From Rhodothermales bacterium (GTDB taxonomy: Bacteria; Bacteroidota; Rhodothermia; Rhodothermales; JAHQVL01): a stretch of 36,380 nucleotides of DNA. Shown here piece by piece: positions 10,997 to 36,380 of the stretch. The notes below the pieces were generated by a model. The model was not told where the DNA came from and ran no database searches. It worked only from the letters and a program-made list of their open reading frames with translations. The position numbers and the translations under genes were made by a program. The stretch is from contig JAWXAX010000019.1 in assembly GCA_034439735.1 (NCBI GenBank), forward strand, positions 1 to 36,380, given 5' to 3'. Within the stretch, counting starts at the first letter, position 1. Every line of letters starts with the position of its first letter.

Positions 10997-11203
10997 GGAT
11001 TAGCGAGTAGCGATTCGTGCTTAGCGAGTAGCGATGGGTCGGGATCGGTTGGGGAGGTTGACCGTTCAACCCGCGGTATTGGCGTTGGTCGCAATGTACC
11101 GCGTATCCTCGTCAAAGCCAGTACCACTGGATCGGAATCAGTAACTCGAACCACCTCGGCGCACATCGCCAATCGCCAATCGCTAATCGTTACTCGCTAA
11201 TCC
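10997..11203. repeat. Inverted repeat filling the aroB/qor divergent intergenic region
   Basis: ATTAGCGAGTAGCGATT-type sequence at 10997-11015 is matched, 18 of 19 bases, by its reverse complement at 11185-11203. The left arm starts one base upstream of the aroB ATG and the right arm ends one base upstream of the qor ATG (11205). Further copies of TAGCGAGTAGCGA lie at 11021-11034 and CCAATCG repeats at 11169-11180. Any promoters for the two genes must lie between or within the arms; I cannot point to a convincing one. Confidence 0.8.
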
Positions 11204-11204
11204 A

Positions 11205-12185
11205 ATGCACGTGATCCATGTAGACGGCGCCGGCTCCCACAGTCGGCTGGTGTTTGAAGAGCGCCCGATACCGGCATTCGGGCCCAATGACCTGTTGGTG
11301 CGTGTGCGGGCGACGGCGTTGAACCGGGCGGATTTGTTGCAGCGGAAAGGGATGTACCCTCCGCCAGAAGGGGCGAGCCCGATCCTTGGCCTCGAAATGG
11401 CCGGCGAGGTGGAGGCGGTCGGGCATCACGTGCGGGGCCGGCGCGTGGGCGACCGGGTCTGTGCGCTACTGCCGGGTGGGGGGTATGCGCAGTACGCCGT
11501 GGTGCCGGCGGAAATGGCGATGACGCTGCCAGACACGCTGTCCTTCGAGGAGGCGGCTGCCATTCCGGAAGTGTTTCTCACGGCGTATCAGGCGCTCGCC
11601 TGGCTCGGAAAGCTCCAGGCCGGCGAGACGGTGCTCGTCCATGCCGGAGCGAGCGGTGTCGGCACGGCGGCTATCCAACTCGCACGTACGATGGGCGCGC
11701 GCGTCATCGTCACGGCGTCGCGCCCCAAACACGCCGCCTGCCTGGCGCTCGGCGCCGAGGCCGCTATCGACTACCGCGAAGAGTCGTTTGACGCCGAGGT
11801 GATGCGCCTCACCCACCGGCACGGGGTCGATGTCGTGCTCGATGTGGTCGGGGCGGACTACTTCGAGCGCAACATCGAGTCCCTCGGGGTCGACGGCCGG
11901 CTCGTCATCCTCGCGCTCATGGGCGGCAGCCGCGTCGAATCCATCAGCCTGCGGCACATCTTCCGAAAACGGCTCCACATCCTCTGCTCGACGCTTCGCA
12001 ACCGGAGTGACGTGTACAAACTCGCACTTACTCGGGACTTTAGCACCGAAATGCTTCCCCGTTTCCAGGCGGGCGAACTCGCTCCGGTCATCGACACGGT
12101 CTACGACTGGACCGACGCCGAGACGGCGCACAGCCGCATGGAGGCCAACCTGAATACGGGGAAGCTGGTGCTTCGGGTTACCTGA
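11205..12185 (+). CDS. NAD(P)H:quinone oxidoreductase, zinc-free MDR family (PIG3/QOR type)
   Basis: Medium-chain dehydrogenase/reductase of 326 residues lacking the structural zinc cysteines. N-terminal GroES-like catalytic domain with ALNRADLLQRKGMYPPP (38-54) and GLEMAGEV (62-69), then a Rossmann domain with the nucleotide-binding AGASGVGTAA (147-156), and ends LNTGKLVLRV as PIG3 homologues do. The family reduces quinones or other alpha,beta-unsaturated carbonyls with NAD(P)H; the physiological substrate here is unknown. The ATG at 11205 follows the inverted repeat by one base and has no Shine-Dalgarno, so it may be leaderless or depend on the repeat for its 5' end. Confidence 0.92.
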   Translation: MHVIHVDGAGSHSRLVFEERPIPAFGPNDLLVRVRATALNRADLLQRKGMYPPPEGASPILGLEMAGEVEAVGHHVRGRRVGDRVCALLPGGGYAQYAVVPAEMAMTLPDTLSFEEAAAIPEVFLTAYQALAWLGKLQAGETVLVHAGASGVGTAAIQLARTMGARVIVTASRPKHAACLALGAEAAIDYREESFDAEVMRLTHRHGVDVVLDVVGADYFERNIESLGVDGRLVILALMGGSRVESISLRHIFRKRLHILCSTLRNRSDVYKLALTRDFSTEMLPRFQAGELAPVIDTVYDWTDAETAHSRMEANLNTGKLVLRVT

Positions 12186-12201
12186 AGGGTGTTTCGCGGG
12201 G

Positions 12202-12269
12202 CCTGCAAGGACACGCAAAATATGGCGTCTCTACGGTTTGGAAACCGACGTTTTTGCCTGTTTCTGACC
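12202..12269 (+). repeat. 68-nt two-hairpin dispersed repeat, copy A
   Basis: One of three copies in the window (others at 30113-30180 and, reversed, 35853-35921). Layout: an imperfect GACACGCAA/TGGCGTCTC stem, then ACGGTTTGGAAACCG as a second hairpin, then GTTTTT and a conserved tail CTGTTTCTGACC. It sits 17 nt after the quinone oxidoreductase stop. The first stem has decayed compared with copy B. Confidence 0.85.
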
Positions 12270-12286
12270 CTCGCGCGTATCGTCGC

Positions 12287-13150
12287 TTACTTAACTCGCA
12301 TCATCTGACGGATGGCTACATAGTCCGCCGTCTCCAGGCGGTAGACGTAGAGGCCGGAGGCGACGCGCGAGCCATCGAACGCTACCTCGTGGTAGCCGGC
12401 CGGCAGCAGGCCATCCACCCGATCATCGACTCGTTCAGGGTGACGCGGCGGCGTAGGCCGTGCCGTATTATCCGTAGAAATCCGATTGGATGAGGCTACT
12501 CGGCGACGTCGTCAGCGTGCTGGCCTTCATGGCCACATCGAACCCGCCGATCAGATTCCAGCCGGCGACGAGCGGCACCGAGAAGAGGTTCCAGCCGGCT
12601 TAAACCGAGATGTCCTCACATGGCCCCTCGGCGTACTTTTCGATGACAAGCGTCGTGATCTCCTGGTCACTCAAGACGTACTTTGTGGTGGTGGCCATGT
12701 CGATATTGACGATGCCGCCATTGATCGTATCTTTACGTCGAAAATCGCCCGCCAGCAGGGTGGTCGGGTCCCACGTAAACGTGAACGAGTGGGTGCCCGA
12801 TAACGTAATCGTCCAGGTCGCCCGGGCGGAGGCGTTGCTGCGGTAGTCGGTATCCGAAAACGTTTTCCCATCCGGGAAGCGGAAGCGAGCGCCGAAAATC
12901 CCGGGTGGCGGGTTGGGCGGCGTTTCGGTCTCTCCGCAAGCGGCATTCATTGCATCCGAGGCGGGGGAGGACTGGCCAATAGTCAACGTGGCGACACTTT
13001 TCTTCGCGTCCTGCACAAGATCGGCGTTTCCCATGCCGCCCCGCAGGCTGACAGGGCAGGCACCGGCTGGGCGCCAGGGACGGCGAACGATGTCAGAATC
13101 GCAAACGTGAGGAAAGCGCGTACCACGAGGCACGATGTAACAGAGGACAT
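12287..13150 (-). pseudogene. Decayed secreted protein with T9SS-like C-terminal sorting domain
   Basis: Reading on the minus strand, an ATG at 13150 opens a signal peptide (MSSVTSCLVVRAFLTFAI...AQP). The frame then shifts near 13060-13080, and the mature part continues in another frame (NADLVQDAKKSVATLTIG to GPCEDISV) until an in-frame TAA at 12600-12602. The text goes on in that frame (AGWNLFSVPLVAGWNLIGGF) to a second TAA, a TGA and another frameshift. It ends in a third frame with LLPAGYHEVAFDGS...ASGLYVYRLET...QMMRVK, the type A/FlgD-like end used for type IX secretion in this phylum. At least three lesions make it a pseudogene. Original function unknown, cell-surface or secreted. Confidence 0.75.
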
Positions 13151-13300
13151 AATCGCCTAATGCCGGTTTGCCGTCAAAACGGGGTGCAACAAAAAGGTGG
13201 GGTTTGGTTCGAGTAAGCGGTCTGGCGGAAGGAATATTTATGTGATGGGCAAGTAATTCCGTGCTCGGTCTGGCACGTCACCAGTGGATCGATCAGGTTT

Positions 13301-16300
13301 ATGGATGGGCTAGAATGGTTGATCGCCGGCGTGGCTGCCGGCGTAGGTGTTTGGATAGGCCTCTTTCTGGGCGGAAGACGGGTCATTACCCCCGCGCCGC
13401 CATCGACGGCGCCCGTGGAGGACGACCCGGCCGTGGCCCTGTACGCCCTGGCCGAAGGTCTCGAAGCCTTCGTGCACCGCTCGGCGCATCCACGCGACCT
13501 CCTCACACACCAACCTTTCCTGGAAGGCGTCGAACGACTTACCGTGACTTCGTTTGACGATGAATCATTGCTGGGTTATGCATTGGGAGAGAACCTCCCC
13601 ATTTCCTGCATGGCCTTCGAGGCGCTCGCGCGCCGGCCGGCCGACCCGTCGATCGCCGACCGTCTGCTCCTTCAGCTCGAGCGGATCTATCTGTGGCCCC
13701 TCTTTTTTGCCCTCCGCGCGCTGAGTGCCCATGTCGGGCCGGCCGGCATCGGCCGGCTCGTCGCCTCCGGGCAGGAGTGGTGGACTCAGCAGCCTCAGGT
13801 ACTGGAATTTTTGAGAGGGTGGATCGAGGAGCGGCTCGCCGCGGGCGAAGCGCCGGCGTTCCATGGAGCGCTGGACCTCGTCGACGACGAGCAGATGGAT
13901 GGGATCGAGGCGGTGCTGGCGGCGCTCAAAATCGACCGGCTGGGGCCGATGGTGGCGGAGGCGCGCGCCTGGCGCGAAGTCCGCATCGACCGCGACGCCC
14001 TGGCCCGCATCGGCGCCGTTTGGGCCGAGCCGCCGTCGGACGACACGATCCCGCATGACGCCCTGACGCGGCTGCGCCATCTGGCGCTGGAAGCGCTCCG
14101 ACAGGAGCGGCCCCGGTCGGTGCTGCTTGTGGGGGAACCAGGCGTGGGGAAGTCGACCCTTATCCGTGCCATCGCGGGTCAACTGTACGCGGAGGGGTGG
14201 ACGATTTTTGAAGCCGGCGCCATGGAGGTGGTGGCCGGCCAGATGTACATCGGGCAACTCGAGGAGCGCATGCAGGAGCTGATTCGCAACCTCGCCGGCA
14301 GACGGCGGGTGTTGTGGATGGTGGGCAATGCGCACGACCTCATTTTCGCCGGCTGGCACCGCGACAATCCACGCAGTGTACTGGACATGATTGCCCCGTA
14401 CATCGAAAAAGGCGATATCACGGTGATCGGAGAGGTCGAGCCGGCCGCCTACGAGCGGATCGTGCAAGTCCGACCCCACCTGCGCGCCGGCCTCAAGACG
14501 GTCACCGTCGATCCCCTCGACGATGCCGGCACGCTCGCTCTCGCCCGTGCGTGGTGCGTAAAACGCAACGCCGCGCTGTCGGACTACGCGCTACAGGAAG
14601 CCTTTCAGATGGCTCGAAACTACCTGGACCGGTCCGCCGCCCCCGGCCATCTCCTCGCGTTTCTGCATCTCGCGCTTGCCGCTCACGCCGCCACGGGACG
14701 GACAGATCCGCCGGCCGTCGACGACATGATCGCTACCTTATCGGACCTGACGGGTCTCCCGGTGTCGTTGCTGAACGATCGGGATCGGCTGGATCTCGGC
14801 GCGTTGCGGGAAACCTTCGAGAAGTCCGTCCTGGGGCAACCCGAAGCGGTCGACTGCCTCGTCGAGCGTGTCGCCATGCTCAAGGCCGGCCTCTGCGACC
14901 CCACCCGGCCGGCGGGCGTCTTCCTCTTCGTCGGCCCGACGGGCACGGGCAAGACGGAGATCGCCAAAACCCTGGCGACGTTTCTGTTTGGAGCGCCGGA
15001 GCGGATGATCCGGCTCGACATGAGCGAATTCATGACGGAGGACTCCCTGCTCCGGCTCCTGGGCGAGGCGGAGCGCGGGTCGGACGCCGTGGCCCTGGTC
15101 AACCAGATCCGAAAACAGCCGTTTTCGGTTGTCCTGCTGGATGAGTTCGAGAAGGCGCACCCGAGCGTGTGGGACCTCTTCCTGCAGGTGTTCGACGACG
15201 GCCGGCTTACGGACCGGCGCGGCCAGACGGCCGATTTTCGCCACGCCATCATCATACTGACGTCCAACCTGGGCGCGGCCGTGCCGGCCGGCGCCGGCGT
15301 GGGTTTCGGTGGCGAAAAACGGGTTTTTTCAGCGGAAAGCGTCCGCCGCGCCGCGCAACAGACGTTCCGCCCCGAATTCCTGAACCGCCTCGACCGGGTC
15401 GTCGTCTTCCGTCCGCTCAGCCGGGTAATCGCGCGGGACATCCTCCAGAAAGAGCTGCGCGATGTGCTCACGCGGCGCGGGTTCAGAAGTCGCGAGTGGG
15501 CGGTTGAGTGGGAGGAGTCTGCCCTCGATTTTTTACTCGAGAAGGGGTTCAGCGACGAGCTGGGCGCCCGGCCGCTCAAACGAGCCATCGAGCGCTACGT
15601 GCTTTCGCCGCTGGCGCTCACGATCGTCAATCACCAGTTTCCGGAGGGCGACCAGTTTCTATTCATCCGTAGCCGGGGCGATGGGTTGGATGTGGAGTTC
15701 ATCGACCCGGACCAGCCCGACCCCGAACCGCCCGCGACCCGCTCGGGCAAATCGGCCGGCCAGAAATTCTCCCTGGAGCCGCTCGTGCTCGAGCCGGCGG
15801 GCACCCGGGCGGAAGTCGATGGCCTGTTCGATCGCTACGAAGCCCTGGAAGATCGGATCGATTCCAATGCCTGGGTCCAGGACAAAGCGGAGGCGCTGGC
15901 CCGCACGGCCGATCCGGCCTTCTGGGGCTGGGAGGGCCGGTTCGAGGTCCTGGCCAGGGTGGAATTCATGGACCGGATCGAACGCGCCATGGGGACGGCC
16001 GATGCGCTGCTCGGCCGGCTCGGCGGGGATGGGAAAGAGGATCGCGCCGCGTATTCACCCGTGTTGGTGCAACGGCTCGCGCAGCGCCTGTATGTGCTGG
16101 AGCAGGCCCTGGGGCAGGAGGCGACCGGCCGGCCGCGCGACGCGTTCTTGCGGATCGAGGCGCGCGGGGCTGAAGCAAACGTTTTCGCGCGCACACTGGC
16201 CGCGATGTATGTCGCCTGGGCCGAAAAACGCCAGATGCGCCACGTAGTGCTTCAGCCACTGGCCGAAGTCCCGACAGCCGAAGGGCGGTTTACCCTCGCG

Positions 16301-23315: not shown

Positions 23316-24182
23316 ATGACGTCCCCACGCGCGCTTGTCCTGGAGTTTACCAAAATGAACGGCGCCGGCAATGATTTTATCGTGATCGATAATCGGTTTT
23401 ATTATTTCAACGCCGAGGAATTGTCCAATCTCGCCCGTCGCTTCTGCCCGCGACGCACCGGGGTGGGGGCGGATGGCCTCCTGGCGTTTTCGACTCCCGA
23501 AGGGCCGGAGGCGCATTTCAGGATGCGGTACTACAACGCCGACGGCAGTCTGGGGACGATGTGCGGCAACGGCGCCCGGTGCCTCGTGCGGTTCGCGCGT
23601 CTGGCCGGGATGATGGACGAGACGCTGGTGTTCGAGTCCGACGCCGGCGTCTACCGTGCCGTCGCGGGGCCGGCCGCGTCGGATCCCGTCCGCCTCTTCG
23701 TGCGCCCGCCCGAGCGCTTCTCCCGGGCCATCCGGCTGGCGTCCGAGAGCGCGCGGAGCGCCGGCGCCTGCCATTTCATCTGGACAGGGACGGAGCACGC
23801 GGTGTGTTTCGTGGACGAGGTGACGCATGCTCCCGTGGAGCGGTGGGGCCCGGCCGTACGAAAAGACCCGGCCCTGCAGCCGGCGGGCGCCAACGTGAAC
23901 TTCGTCCAGGTTGACGACCGCGGCGGGGCGGGCCATCCCGCCCGGATCACCGTCCGCACCCACGAAAAAGGGGTGGAGGCGGAAACCCTGGCATGCGGCA
24001 CGGGCGCCATGGCCTCTGCCGTCGTGGCGCGCCTCGAAACGCGTATCGATACCGACGAGGTGGAGGTGACGATGCCGGGCGGGGTGCTCCGGGTGGGGTT
24101 TCAACTGGAGGCCAGCGAGGTGCGGGACCTGTACCTGGAAGGGCCGGCGGATGTGGTCTATCGCGGCACGCTGGAGGTGTGA
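23316..24182 (+). CDS. dapF: Diaminopimelate epimerase
   Basis: Converts LL- to meso-diaminopimelate for lysine and peptidoglycan synthesis; cytoplasmic, cofactor-free, two-cysteine mechanism. 288 residues from ATG 23316 (MTSPRALVLEFTKMNGAGNDF). The two catalytic cysteines are C83 (TMCGNGARC) and C227 (ACGTGAMAS). The segment GANVNFVQV matches the substrate site of the family. The stop lies 4 nt from the stop of the convergent M28 peptidase gene, so there is no room for a separate terminator. Confidence 0.96.
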   Translation: MTSPRALVLEFTKMNGAGNDFIVIDNRFYYFNAEELSNLARRFCPRRTGVGADGLLAFSTPEGPEAHFRMRYYNADGSLGTMCGNGARCLVRFARLAGMMDETLVFESDAGVYRAVAGPAASDPVRLFVRPPERFSRAIRLASESARSAGACHFIWTGTEHAVCFVDEVTHAPVERWGPAVRKDPALQPAGANVNFVQVDDRGGAGHPARITVRTHEKGVEAETLACGTGAMASAVVARLETRIDTDEVEVTMPGGVLRVGFQLEASEVRDLYLEGPADVVYRGTLEV

Positions 24183-24186
24183 CGCG

Positions 24187-25506
24187 TCAATCGCCGGCGT
24201 CGAACCGGCGCAGAAAGGCCCTGGAGAGCTCGAAAACGGCCTCGAAGTCGTCCCACTCGAGCGTCTCCGGCACGTCGTCCACGCTGTGGTAGGGCTGGGT
24301 GCCGCGGTTGGTATAGAGGAAGAACCCGGGCACGCCGGCCATCAGGAAGGGGTAGTGATCACTGTTGGGCGCATTAGGCCGTTTGCCGATCCGTCCGACG
24401 TTGCCCGAAGCGTCCCCCGTGGAGGCGGACGCCGTAAGCAGCGCAAAGGCATCCGGGAAATCGGCGCCGCCCACGGCCATCACGCCGTCCTGCCCCGAGG
24501 CCACCATGTCCATGTTGAGCAGAAAGTCGATCGAAGTGAGCGGGACGGGGGGCTCCGCCGCCATCACGCGGGAGCCGATCAATCCCTGTTCCTCGCCGGA
24601 AAAGGCCACGAAGAGGAGGGAGCGACGCAACGGCTCTCGCGCGAAATGGCGCGCCAGACTCAGTATCATGGCCACGCCGCTCGCATTGTCGTTGGCGCCA
24701 GGAAAGTACACCTGAGGACCGAGTTGGCCGACATGATCGAAATGCGCTGTCACGAGGAGGTACCGATCGGGTAGCTCTGTCCCGGGCAAAAAGGCGACGA
24801 CGTTGTGCGTCTCGGTGGGCACATCCTGAGCGGTCGTGAGGGTATAAGCGACATCACGCGATCCTTCGATTCCCACTTCGGGCCAGTAGCCGCGCTGGAT
24901 GAGGAAGCCGGGAATGGAGGTGTTCTGCGGAAAGGGACCGTGGGATAAGGTCTCGCTCAGGAAGAAGACGGCGCGCGCGCCCATGGCGGCCGCGGCCTCC
25001 ACACGGTAGAGCAGGGTGCGGGCCGCCGGCGGCATCCCCTCGGGCGCCGGCGTGGGGAGTGCTTCTTCCAACACCACGATAGCGCCGGCGGCATCCACCC
25101 CCGCATAGTCGTTGATGCCGGCCTCTGGGGCGTAGAGCCCGGCGCCGGCTCGCACCAGTCGGGCGTCGCCCGCATACGAAGCCGAGGGGCTGGAGGCGAT
25201 GGGTAAAAAGCCGCGGCCCGGTGGGATCGACCGCCCGTTCAGGTGCAACTCAGGCGTCCCACGAACGAGGTCGACCGTGAAGGTAAACGGCTGCCGGTAG
25301 CCGGCGCCGGTGGGCTGCAGGCCGGCCTCGCGAAACGCCGACTCGATGTAGGCGGCGGCGCGGAGGTGGCCATCACCCTCATACCCGCGGCCCGCCATCA
25401 CCGGGGACGCCAGGGTATCCACATCGCGCATGGCGGCATCCAGCCACGACTGGGCGTTCGCCGTGTGGGCCATCAGCACGAGCGCCAGGAGCAGGATCCG
25501 CCTCAT
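24187..25506 (-). CDS. Secreted M28 family zinc aminopeptidase
   Basis: 439 residues from ATG 25506, with a signal peptide MRRILLLALVLMAHTANAQS. A protease-associated insert lies at about 105-230. The M28 catalytic part has the expected di-zinc ligands: H255 (TAHFDH), bridging D273 (ANDNASG), E305/E306 (SGEEQG), D333 (NMDM) and H407 (PYHSVDD). It probably removes N-terminal residues from peptides in the periplasm or outside. Its ATG overlaps the TGA of the small lipoprotein ORF (ATGA), so initiation may be coupled to that remnant. Confidence 0.92.
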   Translation of the reverse strand: MRRILLLALVLMAHTANAQSWLDAAMRDVDTLASPVMAGRGYEGDGHLRAAAYIESAFREAGLQPTGAGYRQPFTFTVDLVRGTPELHLNGRSIPPGRGFLPIASSPSASYAGDARLVRAGAGLYAPEAGINDYAGVDAAGAIVVLEEALPTPAPEGMPPAARTLLYRVEAAAAMGARAVFFLSETLSHGPFPQNTSIPGFLIQRGYWPEVGIEGSRDVAYTLTTAQDVPTETHNVVAFLPGTELPDRYLLVTAHFDHVGQLGPQVYFPGANDNASGVAMILSLARHFAREPLRRSLLFVAFSGEEQGLIGSRVMAAEPPVPLTSIDFLLNMDMVASGQDGVMAVGGADFPDAFALLTASASTGDASGNVGRIGKRPNAPNSDHYPFLMAGVPGFFLYTNRGTQPYHSVDDVPETLEWDDFEAVFELSRAFLRRFDAGD

Positions 25507-25689: not shown

Positions 25690-25762
25690 AAGGGTTTGAG
25701 GATTAAGGTTCGAGGTTCAAGGGGCAGTACCTTAAACCTCGAACCTTAATCCTTAAACCCTT
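25690..25762. repeat. 33-bp inverted repeat filling the ppiD/lipoprotein gap
   Basis: Arms 25690-25722 and 25730-25762 are complementary at 31 of 33 positions with a 7-nt loop. The right arm ends at the base next to the ppiD stop codon (25763-25765), and the left begins 4 nt from the lipoprotein ATG. No T-run follows in the direction of transcription, so it is not a standard terminator; an RNA-stabilising or attenuating hairpin is possible. Confidence 0.85.
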
Positions 25763-29306: not shown

Positions 29307-30080
29307 TCAGTTGAAGCTGATCGGCTCGAGCGCTAGCTGCCGCCCCTTCACGAGGTTGTGGCACATGGTGCGAAAGGCTTCTTGAACCGGGCCGGGCGTG
29401 CGTACGGCCGGCTCCTGGACGGACACCGAGCGTCGGATGAGCGGGGAAAAAGGTACCCAACCCAAGTAATTAGTTGCCCGGCCGGTGAAGTGACGCGTCA
29501 CCTTCCCAAATCGATCGGCGACGCTGGTGGCGTCCTCCTCGGAGTCGGCGAAGTTGACGACCGCGCACATCGGATAGTCCGGGTCGAATTCCCAGATCAT
29601 CCGCGCCAGCCGGTAGGCGTCGGAGATGGCGGTGGGCTCGCCCACGAGGACGAGCATGCCCACGTCGGCGCGGTCCATGGCCCAGCGCACGGCGCCTTCG
29701 GTGCCGGCGGGGGCGTCCAGAATGATGAAGGCGTGGTCCTGCCGGAGCTCGTGAATGAGTTCGTCCAGCGCGTCGAACAGCCGGCCCTCGCGGGTCTCGG
29801 TTCGCCCCGCCTCGGCGGCGCCCATGATCAAGGTGATGCCGGCGGCGGTGCGATGAAGCACCTGCTCCTTCCGGGTGGTCTTGCGGACGAGGTCGATGAC
29901 GCTCCCGGCCGGCTGCTCGTTGAGCAGCAGCGCACACGCTCCCTGGCCGAGGTCTACATCGATCAGCGCCACCTGATGCCCCTCGGCCGCGAGGGTCTCC
30001 GCGAGGTTGACGCTGACGATGCTTTTGCCGACCCCGCCTTTCCCGCTGGCGACGGCGATAATCGTTGAAGTACGTTTCAT
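29307..30080 (-). CDS. flhG: FlhG/FleN-like MinD family ATPase
   Basis: 257 residues. Deviant Walker A SGKGGVGKS (12-20) at the N-terminus, then LIDVDLGQGACALLL and DYPMCAVVNFADSEED, as in MinD/FlhG proteins. FlhG counters FlhF and limits flagellar number, acting as an ATP-dependent dimer at the membrane. No DQAxxLR FlrA-binding N-terminus is present: the protein starts directly at the P-loop domain, and I see no clear amphipathic membrane-targeting helix at the C-terminus (ends ALEPISFN). It is downstream of flhF across a 154-nt repeat-filled gap. Confidence 0.9.
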   Translation of the reverse strand: MKRTSTIIAVASGKGGVGKSIVSVNLAETLAAEGHQVALIDVDLGQGACALLLNEQPAGSVIDLVRKTTRKEQVLHRTAAGITLIMGAAEAGRTETREGRLFDALDELIHELRQDHAFIILDAPAGTEGAVRWAMDRADVGMLVLVGEPTAISDAYRLARMIWEFDPDYPMCAVVNFADSEEDATSVADRFGKVTRHFTGRATNYLGWVPFSPLIRRSVSVQEPAVRTPGPVQEAFRTMCHNLVKGRQLALEPISFN

Positions 30081-30112
30081 GAATTGCTATTAAATACTGG
30101 CGTTACGCCGGG

Positions 30113-30180
30113 TCTGCGAGGAGACGCAACGTTTTGCGTCTCTACGGTTTGGAAACCGGCGTTTTTACCCGTTTCTGGCC
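30113..30180 (+). repeat. 68-nt two-hairpin dispersed repeat, copy B
   Basis: Best-preserved copy: GGAGACGCAA, a short loop, TTGCGTCTC, then ACGGTTTGGAAACCG and GTTTTTACCCGTTTCTGGCC. It occupies the flhF/flhG junction, in antisense to the operon transcript. Same family as 12202-12269 and 35853-35921. Confidence 0.88.
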
Positions 30181-30204
30181 GCCGCTGCGTAACGTCATTT
30201 AAAT

Positions 30205-30236
30205 ACCTGGAACCTGCAACCTGGAACCTGCAACCT
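30205..30236. repeat. 14-nt tandem repeat at the flhF stop
   Basis: Two copies of acctggaacctgca (30205-30218, 30219-30232) plus a partial third that merges with the flhF TAG (30235-30237). It is one more simple-repeat tract that reaches a codon at a gene border. Confidence 0.8.
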
Positions 30237-31629
30237 ACATCAGCTGCATCATCTCCTCGACAAACCAGCTCGGCGAAAACGCGCCGACCCCATCTGGGAT
30301 GCGCGGGCTCGAGGAGGCGAACTGAACGGGAAGTTGGATCTGGATCATCCATTCGGCGATGCGGCCCCAGCTCCGTGTCTCGTCGAGGTGCGTGAGCGCC
30401 ACGGCGTCCGGCTGGAGGGGCATCCGCTTGAGGTAGTCGGGGTCGAAGTCCTCCAGCGCCCGCGTGGCGTTGAGCACCAGATGCACTTGAAGCGGCATCA
30501 GCGGCTCGACGAGCCGTTTGAGGTGCTGGAGCGTCTTACGGGCGGCGGCTTCGTGGACCGGCAGCGGGGGGGTGTCGATGAGTACTTTTTCGAAGGTCTG
30601 GGCGCGGTCCAGGGCCTGGATCATCTCCTCGGGAGTGCGCACGCTCTGGACGGGAATGCCGAACTGCCGAAAGTAGTCGGTCGGGTTGAGGTACGGCAGG
30701 GCGCGGTCGTCCTCCGGCATGATCGAGATCACCGTCGTGTGATGCCGGCCAAAAAAGCTGGGATGTTTGGCCAGTTTGAGCAGGGTCGTGGTCTTGCCGG
30801 CGCCGCTCGGCCCGATCATCATCAGGGGGCCGTTGTACCGCTTGGAGACGGTGGGCTCGAGCGCGAGGCGAATCTCCTGGGCGAGCGCCCAGCGGACCTT
30901 CTCTCGATCCCCATCGGGCTCGTACCCGCGGGTGATGAGCGCGTCGAACAGGCGGGTCACGGTGGAGGGGCGCATGCCCTGGCGGAGCAGCTTCGCGTAA
31001 TACACGTTGGCCATCCAGCGTTGGCCGGCGCCGATGATCGAGCTCTCGAAGCGCCGATCCAGCATATCCAGCCGTTCGTGCAGGACACGGAGCTGGGCCT
31101 CGAGCAACTCTTCGAGCCGCTCGGGCAGCGTGGGCACGAGGGCCTGCGCCGGCTGCGGCATGTTCGACCCCGAGGGCATCGTGCCGGTATAGAGCCGGTT
31201 GCGCCCGGCGGCTGGACCGCCGCCCGTGGCGGGCACGACGGCTCGCTGTTCGGCGGGTGGGCGGGTCGTCGGCGGTAGATCGTAGGAGAATAACCCGGCG
31301 TCGGATGTCGCTGCGCCTCCGGCATGGGCGTGCTGCGGCTGTTCGACGGCGCGCGGCCGGGGCTGTGTCCGGTTCTGTGTCCGGTTCTGTGTCCGAGCGT
31401 AGCCATACCCCGCCGCCGCGGGTTCGGCGAGCGGTTTCGCCGGCGTCTGCTGAGGCAGCCTACGGCCGGCGTTCAGATTGGCCGGCACATCGACCATCAC
31501 AGTGATGCGCGCCGGGGTGTCGCCCTCGGCGGGAATGGATTCGAGAAGCACCACGTCGTCGCCCAGCAACCGACGCGCTTCGATCAGCGCCGCATGGATG
31601 CTGGTGCCGGTGAGTGTTTTGACTTTCAT
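30235..31629 (-). CDS. flhF: FlhF, SRP-type GTPase for flagellar placement (divergent)
   Basis: 464 residues. Basic N-terminal B-domain (MKVKTLTGTSIHAALIEARRLLGDD), a long low-complexity linker (about 50-165) with a QNRT repeat, then the N and G domains. G1 is GPSGAGKTTTLLK (273-285). The usual DTYRIGA of G2 is replaced by IMPEDDRALPYLNP; G3 reads IDTPPLPV, G4 THLDE, and the closing loop SSPRIPDGV. The fold is clearly SRP-GTPase, but the altered G2 suggests changed nucleotide handling. FlhF marks the site of flagellar assembly with FlhG, encoded next. It lies 71 nt downstream of flhA. Confidence 0.9.
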   Translation of the reverse strand: MKVKTLTGTSIHAALIEARRLLGDDVVLLESIPAEGDTPARITVMVDVPANLNAGRRLPQQTPAKPLAEPAAAGYGYARTQNRTQNRTQPRPRAVEQPQHAHAGGAATSDAGLFSYDLPPTTRPPAEQRAVVPATGGGPAAGRNRLYTGTMPSGSNMPQPAQALVPTLPERLEELLEAQLRVLHERLDMLDRRFESSIIGAGQRWMANVYYAKLLRQGMRPSTVTRLFDALITRGYEPDGDREKVRWALAQEIRLALEPTVSKRYNGPLMMIGPSGAGKTTTLLKLAKHPSFFGRHHTTVISIMPEDDRALPYLNPTDYFRQFGIPVQSVRTPEEMIQALDRAQTFEKVLIDTPPLPVHEAAARKTLQHLKRLVEPLMPLQVHLVLNATRALEDFDPDYLKRMPLQPDAVALTHLDETRSWGRIAEWMIQIQLPVQFASSSPRIPDGVGAFSPSWFVEEMMQLM

Positions 31630-35048: not shown

Positions 35049-35825
35049 TTATCGGGGAGCGATGGCCTCGATCATAGCGGACATGTCCTCCACCATCTGC
35101 ACGAAGAGCTCGGGGACGATGGGGAGGAAATGCTGGACGTAGAAAAAGGTGATCGCGAGGCCGACCAGCAGCTTGAGCGAAAGGCTCAGGGAGAAGATCT
35201 CGGTCTGCGGAGCCACGCGGGCGAAGATCCCCAGCGTCATGTCCACCAGGAAGATGGTGAGCATAAACGGCGCCGCGAGCCGCAGCGCCGTCACAAACAG
35301 ATCGCCCGTCCACGACATCATCACCGGGCCGGCCAGGTGCAAGTCCGCGCCGGCGAGCGGCACCACGTAGAAGGACGCATTTAGCGCCCTGATCACCTGA
35401 TGATGCCCGTCCAGGATCAGGAAAAGCAGTAGGGTGAGCATCGTCAACAGGTTGCTGATCGGGTTCGACGCCTGGCCATCCGCCGGGCTGATGACCTGCG
35501 AGATGCTGAACGCCATCTGAAAGCCGATGAAGTCGCCGGCAAACCGGATCGCAAAAAAGATGAACCGCGCCGCGAGCCCGAGCACCGCCCCCGTAAGCGC
35601 CTCCACGATCACGTAATACGCGAGCGCGATAGGCACCGTCGGCGTCAGCCCCTCGGGCATCGGCACGATGCCGGCCAGACCGTACGCCATCGTGATGGCG
35701 AGCATCACTTTCACCCGCACCGGTATAAACGGCTGCTCGAAAAAGGGCGAAGCCATGAGCAAGCCGGCGATCCGTACGAACACCAGGAAGATGTACAGCA
35801 GGTAATGCGGATCGAGGATGGACAA
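35049..35825 (-). CDS. fliR: Flagellar export gate protein FliR
   Basis: 258 residues with about six membrane segments. Family text includes FVRIAGLLMASPFFEQPFIPVRVKVMLA near the N-terminus and GDFIGFQMAFSI in the middle. The likely start is TTG 35825; an in-frame TAA at 35841-35843, inside a TAATCGC repeat, bars any start more than five codons upstream, and no ATG or GTG lies between. FliR forms the export gate core with FliP and FliQ. fliQ is upstream across a repeat-filled gap of 153 nt. Confidence 0.95.
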   Translation of the reverse strand: MSILDPHYLLYIFLVFVRIAGLLMASPFFEQPFIPVRVKVMLAITMAYGLAGIVPMPEGLTPTVPIALAYYVIVEALTGAVLGLAARFIFFAIRFAGDFIGFQMAFSISQVISPADGQASNPISNLLTMLTLLLFLILDGHHQVIRALNASFYVVPLAGADLHLAGPVMMSWTGDLFVTALRLAAPFMLTIFLVDMTLGIFARVAPQTEIFSLSLSLKLLVGLAITFFYVQHFLPIVPELFVQMVEDMSAMIEAIAPR

Positions 35826-35827
35826 AA

Positions 35828-35850
35828 TGGCGATTAGCGATTAGCGATTA
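35828..35850 (-). repeat. TAATCGC triplet repeat at the fliR start
   Basis: On the minus strand three successive TAATCGC words end in CCA two bases before the fliR TTG. The same words occur before qor (11169-11203). The repeat contains the in-frame TAA that limits the fliR start. Confidence 0.75.
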
Positions 35851-35852
35851 AC

Positions 35853-35921
35853 GGCCACAAACGGGTAATAATGCCGGTTTAAAAAACCGTGGAGACGCAA
35901 CACATTGCGTCTCCATGCAAG
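35853..35921 (-). repeat. Two-hairpin dispersed repeat, copy C (reverse orientation)
   Basis: On the minus strand: GGAGACGCAA, four-base loop, TTGCGTCTCC, then ACGGTTTTTTAAACCGG and TTACCCGTTTGTGGCC. It matches copies at 12202 and 30113 with one inserted base. It lies in the fliQ/fliR junction, sense to the operon. Both stems are intact. Confidence 0.86.
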
Positions 35922-35978
35922 CCCCCCGTACCATCGATTAGTACCGTGAAACAAGTCCGTGCATGATTGTGACGATTG

Positions 35979-36248
35979 TCACCGCGAGACCTGGGGGATG
36001 AATTGCATTACATGCGTCGTGAAGTCGGTCAGCATCTCCAGCATCCAGGGCGCCAGTAACAGCAGCACGACGGCGATGGCGAGGATCTTCGGGATGAACG
36101 AGAGGGTCATCTCCTGGATCGAGGTCATGGCCTGAAACAGGCTTACCAGTAGCCCCACGACGAGCGCCGTGCCCAGCAAGGGCGCGATGATCATCAAAGC
36201 GGTACGGATAGCCTCCTGCACCCAGAATAGCGCGACGTCGGTGTTCAT
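35979..36248 (-). CDS. fliQ: Flagellar export gate protein FliQ
   Basis: 89 residues, two hydrophobic hairpin helices (about 13-40 and 52-75) with the typical QEAIRTALMIIAPLLGTALVVGLL opening region and SIQEMTLSFIPKILA in the middle, the usual FliQ length. Four FliQ copies wrap the FliP/FliR core of the export gate. ATG 36248. The next gene upstream is probably fliP, beyond the right edge. The 5' side is simple-repeat DNA: AACCTTGAATATTAAACC, then the 7-nt array. Confidence 0.94.
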   Translation of the reverse strand: MNTDVALFWVQEAIRTALMIIAPLLGTALVVGLLVSLFQAMTSIQEMTLSFIPKILAIAVVLLLLAPWMLEMLTDFTTHVMQFIPQVSR

Positions 36249-36285
36249 CTGGTTGGTTTAATATTCAAGGTTTAATGTTCAACCG

Positions 36286-36380
36286 TTCACTTTTCACTTT
36301 TCACTTTTCACTTTTCACTTTTCACTTTTCACTTTTCACTTTTCACTTTTCACTTTTCACTTTTCACTTTTCACTTTTCA
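36286..36380. repeat. Heptanucleotide (TTTTCAC) tandem array, cut by the window edge
   Basis: From 36291 there are twelve perfect copies of TTTTCAC plus a six-base partial copy to 36380, preceded by TTCAC. There is not a single mismatch, so the array is young or actively homogenised. It lies about 40 nt upstream of the fliQ ATG. The true copy number is unknown because the sequence ends inside it, which may also be a contig end. Confidence 0.97.

Follow-up and report, generated by a model that had tools for sequence, protein, structure and literature searches.

Bacterial MITEs such as NEMIS/Correia, RUP, ERIC, Nezha and BrickBuilt are short, non-coding elements with inverted ends that lie between genes in tens of copies, and BrickBuilt, from Porphyromonas gingivalis, also contains a minisatellite (PMC4596501). 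A second kind of dispersed repeat is represented by the GTAG REPs (PMC3733652) and REPINs (PMC3116915), which are short palindromes with GTAG at one foot and a covarying stem, set head to head in REPINs. REP units may also sit within a second palindromic repeat or be joined to one, and passages in PMC3733652 describe GTAG-15 dimers within long palindromes in A. variabilis and double inverted repeats in P. putida.

Here we analyze an intergenic repeat from a Rhodothermales bacterium that combines features of both kinds. The repeat is very probably a non-coding MITE of about 102 bp with 12-bp inverted ends, mobilized by a presumed DDE-type transposase and carrying a REP-like hairpin as a passenger. 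It resembles the MITEs named above in being short, non-coding, bounded by inverted ends, intergenic and present in tens of copies, and a related element in the same genome holds a minisatellite as BrickBuilt does (PMC4596501). It differs from them in its CTGACGTTACGC ends, its 7-bp duplication and its embedded GTAG hairpin. Its embedded hairpin is also reminiscent of the A. variabilis and P. putida arrangements, but the passages on those cases describe neither target-site duplications nor families with unrelated interiors and common ends (PMC3733652), both of which are found here. We regard the element, with its embedded REP-like hairpin, as a new MITE family whose kind is ordinary and whose composition is mildly unusual. 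A Bacteroidota lineage with sparse sampling thereby gains a set of MITE families that share their ends, and the case shows that a REP-like hairpin can reside within a transposon.

Anatomy and genomic distribution of the element

Intact copies of this family, termed family A, are 101-102 bp long and non-coding, and have 12-bp inverted ends of the form CTGACGTTACGC ... GCGTAACGTCA-N. The left inverted repeat is followed by a short GC-rich GGGCCTGCAAG, stem I (GAGACGCAA-N4-TTGCGTCTC), stem II (TACGGTTTG-AAACCG), GCATTTTTACCCGTTTCTGG and the right inverted repeat. In the family alignment, 86% of the cells in the 11-12-bp terminal inverted repeats are paired. The same genome contains a second A subfamily with the stem GAGACACGA/TCGTGTCTC, and the stems of the two subfamilies differ by compensating changes.

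The window, which is the whole 36,380-nucleotide stretch analyzed and the entire contig C19 of a 5.13-Mb draft genome in 304 contigs, carries three copies. The initial annotation had described these as a 68-nt two-hairpin element present in both orientations and always between genes, and all three were recovered where it had placed them. The 68-nt limits correspond to the conserved middle of the element and not to its boundary, with the alignment extending well outside them. The stem is perfect in the copies at 30113 and 35853 but not in the copy at 12202, where there are two mismatches (GACACGCAA/GGCGTCTC). None of the three copies is spanned by an open reading frame of more than 104 aa.

The copy at 30097..30198 (plus strand, 102 bp) is full-length, with inverted ends and an exact duplication, and scores 119 bits over positions 1-102 of the covariance model. 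Its left terminal inverted repeat, CTGGCGTTACGC (30097..30108, plus), pairs in the family alignment with the right one, GCGTAACGTCAT (30187..30198, plus), which was also found in the end-motif search. The element is flanked by the target-site duplication TTAAATA, which is the same at 30090..30096 on the left and 30199..30205 on the right (both plus). Stem I is the REP-like hairpin GAGACGCAACGTTTTGCGTCTC (30121..30142, plus), whose 3'-side CTACG tag reads CGTAG on the opposite strand and which was found independently in other genomes. Stem II, CGGTTTGGAAACCG followed by GCGTTTTT (30145..30158, plus), was delimited by the family alignment, stem pairing and a terminator scan. This copy occupies the flhG-flhF gap, between the genes for an FlhG-like ATPase (29307-30080, minus) and an FlhF-like SRP54 GTPase (30235-31629, minus).

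A second copy lies in the gap between fliR (35049-35825, minus) and fliQ (35979-36248, minus), confirming that two copies are inside the flagellar operon; all four flanking genes are on the minus strand. This copy (35852..35936, minus; 79 bits with the covariance model, and included in the family alignment) is missing its right end, and a (GCGATTA)3 heptamer array identified in a repeat scan (35830..35850) adjoins the lost end. The arms of its stem I (35892..35913, minus) are perfectly palindromic. Tandem arrays with periods of 7 or 14 occur at gene borders throughout the window, at 2789-2804, 11001-11034, 11165-11202, 25693-25759, 30205-30236, 35830-35850 and 36255-36380. Their units differ (TAATCGC, GGTTCGA, ACCTGCA, TTCACTT and others), two arrays adjoin MITE copies and one reaches the contig end. 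The period of 7 equals the length of the MITE duplication, which is a candidate link only.

The third copy (12186..12286, plus) is full-length, scoring 92.7 bits over positions 1-102, and its flanks at 12179-12185 and 12287-12293 agree at 4/7 bases. The alignment places its stem I, with the two mismatches, at 12210..12231 (plus). The neighbors are an alcohol dehydrogenase gene (11205-12185, plus) and, converging on it from the minus strand, the tail of a decayed gene. The dehydrogenase stop codon (12183-12185) sits in the left flank and the stop of the minus-strand frame (12287-12289) in the right, so the insertion spared both gene ends. The adjoining region at 12287-13306 (minus) contains reading-frame remnants in multiple frames that end in a C-terminal stretch, GLYVYRLETADYVAIRQMMRVK, resembling a type IX secretion signal, and is probably a decayed gene.

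We searched the genome for further copies. The best blastn match to the 30113 copy had E = 4.7e-29, and there were nine good matches together with several short ones. A covariance model built from eleven copies gave 19 matches in the genome, about 15 of them strong, on different contigs; it detected the three window copies at E = 3.8e-30, 1.9e-22 and 1.6e-18. The BLAST and covariance-model E-values therefore exclude chance. Copies lie in both orientations and are mostly intergenic. The initial annotation had held that its reading would be refuted if only three copies existed in the genome and sister genomes had none: about 15 copies are present, but the sister genomes searched gave none. Blastn did not find family A in 39 relatives, nor did the covariance model in 79 further genomes of the order, except for stem-I hairpins in one of them (G022). 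Exact CTGACGTTACGC was listed for the source genome but for no relative among five. The MITE group looks lineage-specific as far as it was sampled, among genomes that included no congener.

Target-site duplications and sister families with common ends

We counted 44 occurrences of the end motif GACGTTACGC in the genome, compared with 3 of its reversed control. A search for paired ends with similar flanks revealed exact 7-bp AT-rich duplications at many independent loci. Nine of 18 elements with the shared ends have flanks that are identical at 7/7 positions, and 98 of 126 flank bases agree overall. We generated a null distribution by permuting right flanks among the elements 20,000 times; among the permuted flanks, exact matches averaged 0.5 and peaked at 5, and 98 agreeing bases were never reached. 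Shifting the flank by 1-3 bases left 0 exact duplications. Within full-length family A, the duplication is exact in 4/8 copies, and the remaining four, the 12186 copy among them, match at 3-5/7 flank bases; one family-B copy matches at 1/7. A good part of the copies thus have no visible duplication, which counts against the MITE reading. The copies with degenerate flanks, including the one at 12186, look older.

The same ends bound other elements in the genome, among them at least two further families. Family C is about 123 bp long (L033, L053, L062, L071 and L076) and has an interior unrelated to that of family A; its 7-bp duplication is exact in 4/5 copies and matches at 6/7 bases in L071. 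The elements of family B (L046 and L047) are about 153 bp long and again combine these ends with an unrelated interior. A single transposase acting in trans would be expected to leave such a pattern, in which the interiors are unrelated but the ends and the duplication length are shared. Family-B copies reach four contig ends (L041, L044, L051 and L069), suggesting recent copies of high identity. The minisatellite-bearing element (L037; contig C21, about 23892-24207) is a 318-bp MITE in which the interior is a CATGTAACCCGG-type minisatellite, both ends are intact and the 7-bp duplication (CTCTTAA) is exact. Tandem arrays with a period of about 73 bp, in which the unit is the left half of an A-like element, occur at L072 (C256) and L184 (C203). 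Beyond this genome, plasmid searches with the A and C elements gave no match, viral contigs contained no paired MITE ends, and a GTDB scan with the family-C end gave one match only, in a Nitrosomonas MAG, which by eye lacked the family-C interior.

The element is thus short (100-102 bp) and non-coding, with inverted ends, a fixed 7-bp duplication and dispersed copies. The proposal that it is MITE-like is borne out by the inverted ends and exact target-site duplications. The parallel description of it as REP-like applies to the inner hairpin, which exists independently, but not to the whole unit, which has inverted ends and a duplication. In the mechanism that we propose, a DDE-type transposase, produced by a partner transposon that is now absent or unassembled, would recognize the CTGACGTTACGC ends and excise or copy the element. 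Insertion would then take place at AT-rich sites cut with a 7-bp stagger, perhaps with a preference for TTANNNA-like sequences, and copies that land between genes would survive because they are harmless there. Stem I would be a GTAG-tagged REP-like palindrome that was captured by the MITE and multiplied along with it, and if the two copies in the flagellar operon affected mRNA at all, they would do so incidentally.

The stem I hairpin outside the MITE

The pattern GAGACGCAA-N2-6-TTGCGTCTCTACG is present in 12/395 genomes sampled across the phylum, with 0 for the controls. In the hairpin contexts printed, MITE ends accompany the hairpin in the source genome only, and elsewhere it is solitary. 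A pattern that specifies only the foot, GAGAC-N10-16-GTCTCTACG, matched in 12/12 genomes examined and its control in 0/12; the inner stems recovered in this way include GCGA/TCGC, GTGA/TCAC, AGGG/CCCT and GCCC/GGGC, among others. In 40 distinct hairpins, the four inner pairs are 95% paired and have 22 doubly changed cells compared with 4.3 in shuffles, counts that reflect diversity and not frequency because the hairpins were picked by hand from listings as distinct sequences. When the stem-I pairing of these 40 hairpins was slid, none of the slid versions came near the true register.

Read on the complementary strand, stem I is CGTAGAGACGCAA-N4-TTGCGTCTC, a palindrome within the 20-40-nt range and with the GTAG tag of a REP. 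The CGTAG beside the palindrome fits the GTAG REP definition as worded in PMC3733652, and further points of resemblance to GTAG REPs (PMC3733652) and REPINs (PMC3116915) are its short length, covarying stem and head-to-head pairs elsewhere in Bacteroidota. One genome (G189) contains seven such pairs, six of them spaced 15-17 nt apart in a REPIN-like arrangement. Unlike GTAG REPs and REPINs, the hairpin here lies near no examined RAYT, and about half of its copies in the source genome are locked in the transposon. The papers listed by a literature search on the stem-I hairpin sequence dealt with unrelated subjects.

The hairpin pattern was also found in 59 stretches of viral contigs. At several IMG/VR loci (L200, L203, L242, L254 and others), the GTAG hairpin is present in phage contigs in up to several copies per 13 kb. 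These hairpins are sometimes at the ends of structural genes, and in L200 the hairpin adjoins capsid and protease genes. In another genome (G193), at L116, L125 and L131, a conserved CCTCGTTGAAC...GTTCAACGA stretch precedes the hairpin, and this is perhaps another composite element. We tentatively suggest, as an idea that may well prove wrong, that the GTAGAGAC-stem-GTCTC hairpin is a palindrome with independent mobility that spreads horizontally in Bacteroidota and phages, that its mover is not one of the RAYTs examined, and that one or more MITE families have captured it and now multiply it. In that case, like the CGTC-tagged REPs, it would be a mobile unit for which no transposase is known. 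Its patchy distribution across the phylum and phage contigs, without a flanking RAYT, bears on the means by which REP-like palindromes spread when they have no transposase dedicated to them.

Candidate transposases and alternative readings

We ran the transposase profiles PF01609 (DDE_Tnp_1) and PF01797 on the genome. The single PF01609 match is an IS5-family gene without the MITE ends, and this candidate mover was rejected. The open reading frames that adjoin unpaired ends encode ordinary proteins and no transposase. Thus, no transposase-bearing element with CTGACGTTACGC ends was found in the 304-contig draft using PF01609, PF01797 and the open reading frames near unpaired ends. Likewise, the loci examined contain no long element with ends up to 3 kb apart and an exact or near-exact duplication, the longest being the 318-bp minisatellite-bearing element. 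In the IS4 family, IS50/IS10-type ends begin with CTGA, and the ISPepr1 group makes 7-8-bp duplications. The terminal CTGA and 7-bp duplication seen here recall parts of that family, which we take as a lead only, but no such transposase was found in this assembly.

We considered the possibility that the elements are retained as functional RNA or DNA structures, such as terminators, attenuators or mRNA-stabilizing hairpins, that tune the flagellar operon. Transcripts of the 30097 copy fold better than shuffles (z = -3.8 for the plus strand and -3.1 for the operon strand), but strong folding on either strand is expected from the long inverted ends alone. The 35852 copy, which is sense with respect to fliQ-fliR, has a terminator-like match in which an 11-pair stem is followed by CGGTTTTTTA; yet the region has 9 such matches compared with 6.3 in shuffles (sd 2.8), which is no excess. 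Moreover, relative to the operon the two flagellar copies are oriented oppositely to each other, the 30097 copy being antisense, and the remaining copies are scattered beside unrelated genes. Stem covariation within the source-genome family alignment is slight (4 doubly changed cells), and Rfam gave 0 matches in the window at the family gathering score. These observations make retention for such a function improbable as an account of the family. Given the sense terminator-like match, the lack of excess over shuffles and the opposite orientation of the 30097 copy, a regulatory role is possible for the 35852 copy and unproven for all. Even less plausible, to the point where we give it almost no weight, is that the three copies are leftovers of an ordinary intergenic repeat spread in tandem or by recombination, without transposition. 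Heptamer arrays do adjoin two copies, and one such array replaces the right end of the 35852 copy, but this origin is contradicted by the precision of the ends, by exact 7-bp duplications at loci independent of one another and by the sharing of the same ends among unrelated interiors.

The remaining alternative is that the entire 102-bp unit is a REP/REPIN-type element moved by the genome's RAYT, a Y1 transposase. Stem I is what such an element would contain, being a GTAG-tagged palindrome of 20-30 nt whose stem covaries; hairpins are paired head-to-head about 16 nt apart in G189, and the source genome encodes one RAYT (NCBIfam NF047646, 186.5 bits) in addition to one IS200-type Y1 gene. However, Y1 transposition is not expected to give inverted ends with 7-bp duplications. 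The initial annotation had raised mobilization by a RAYT-type transposase, and this is not supported: across nine genomes, 30 Y1 genes were examined and none had the hairpin within 1.5 kb, a count that leaves out five weaker Y1 matches. Twenty-eight of these genes are from eight other hairpin-bearing genomes. At the two Y1 genes of the source genome (L016 and L017), neither hairpin nor ends lie within 1.5 kb on each side, or within the shorter distance available at contig ends, and both candidates were rejected as movers. Taken together, this makes movement of the whole unit by the RAYT very unlikely, and mobilization as a MITE by a DDE-type enzyme remains the reading that we prefer. The downstream side of the RAYT is barely seen, as the contig stops about 60 bp past the gene. 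The repeats beside both Y1 genes of the source genome are of other kinds. Upstream of the RAYT lies a GTAG-GCCGGGTTAGGTCCC... palindrome, and a 13-nt array follows on its downstream side. The IS200-type gene (L016, contig C199) has five copies of another two-hairpin repeat (GGCCGGCGTTAAAACACCGGCC ... GCATCGCGCGGCGATGC) on one side and two on the other.
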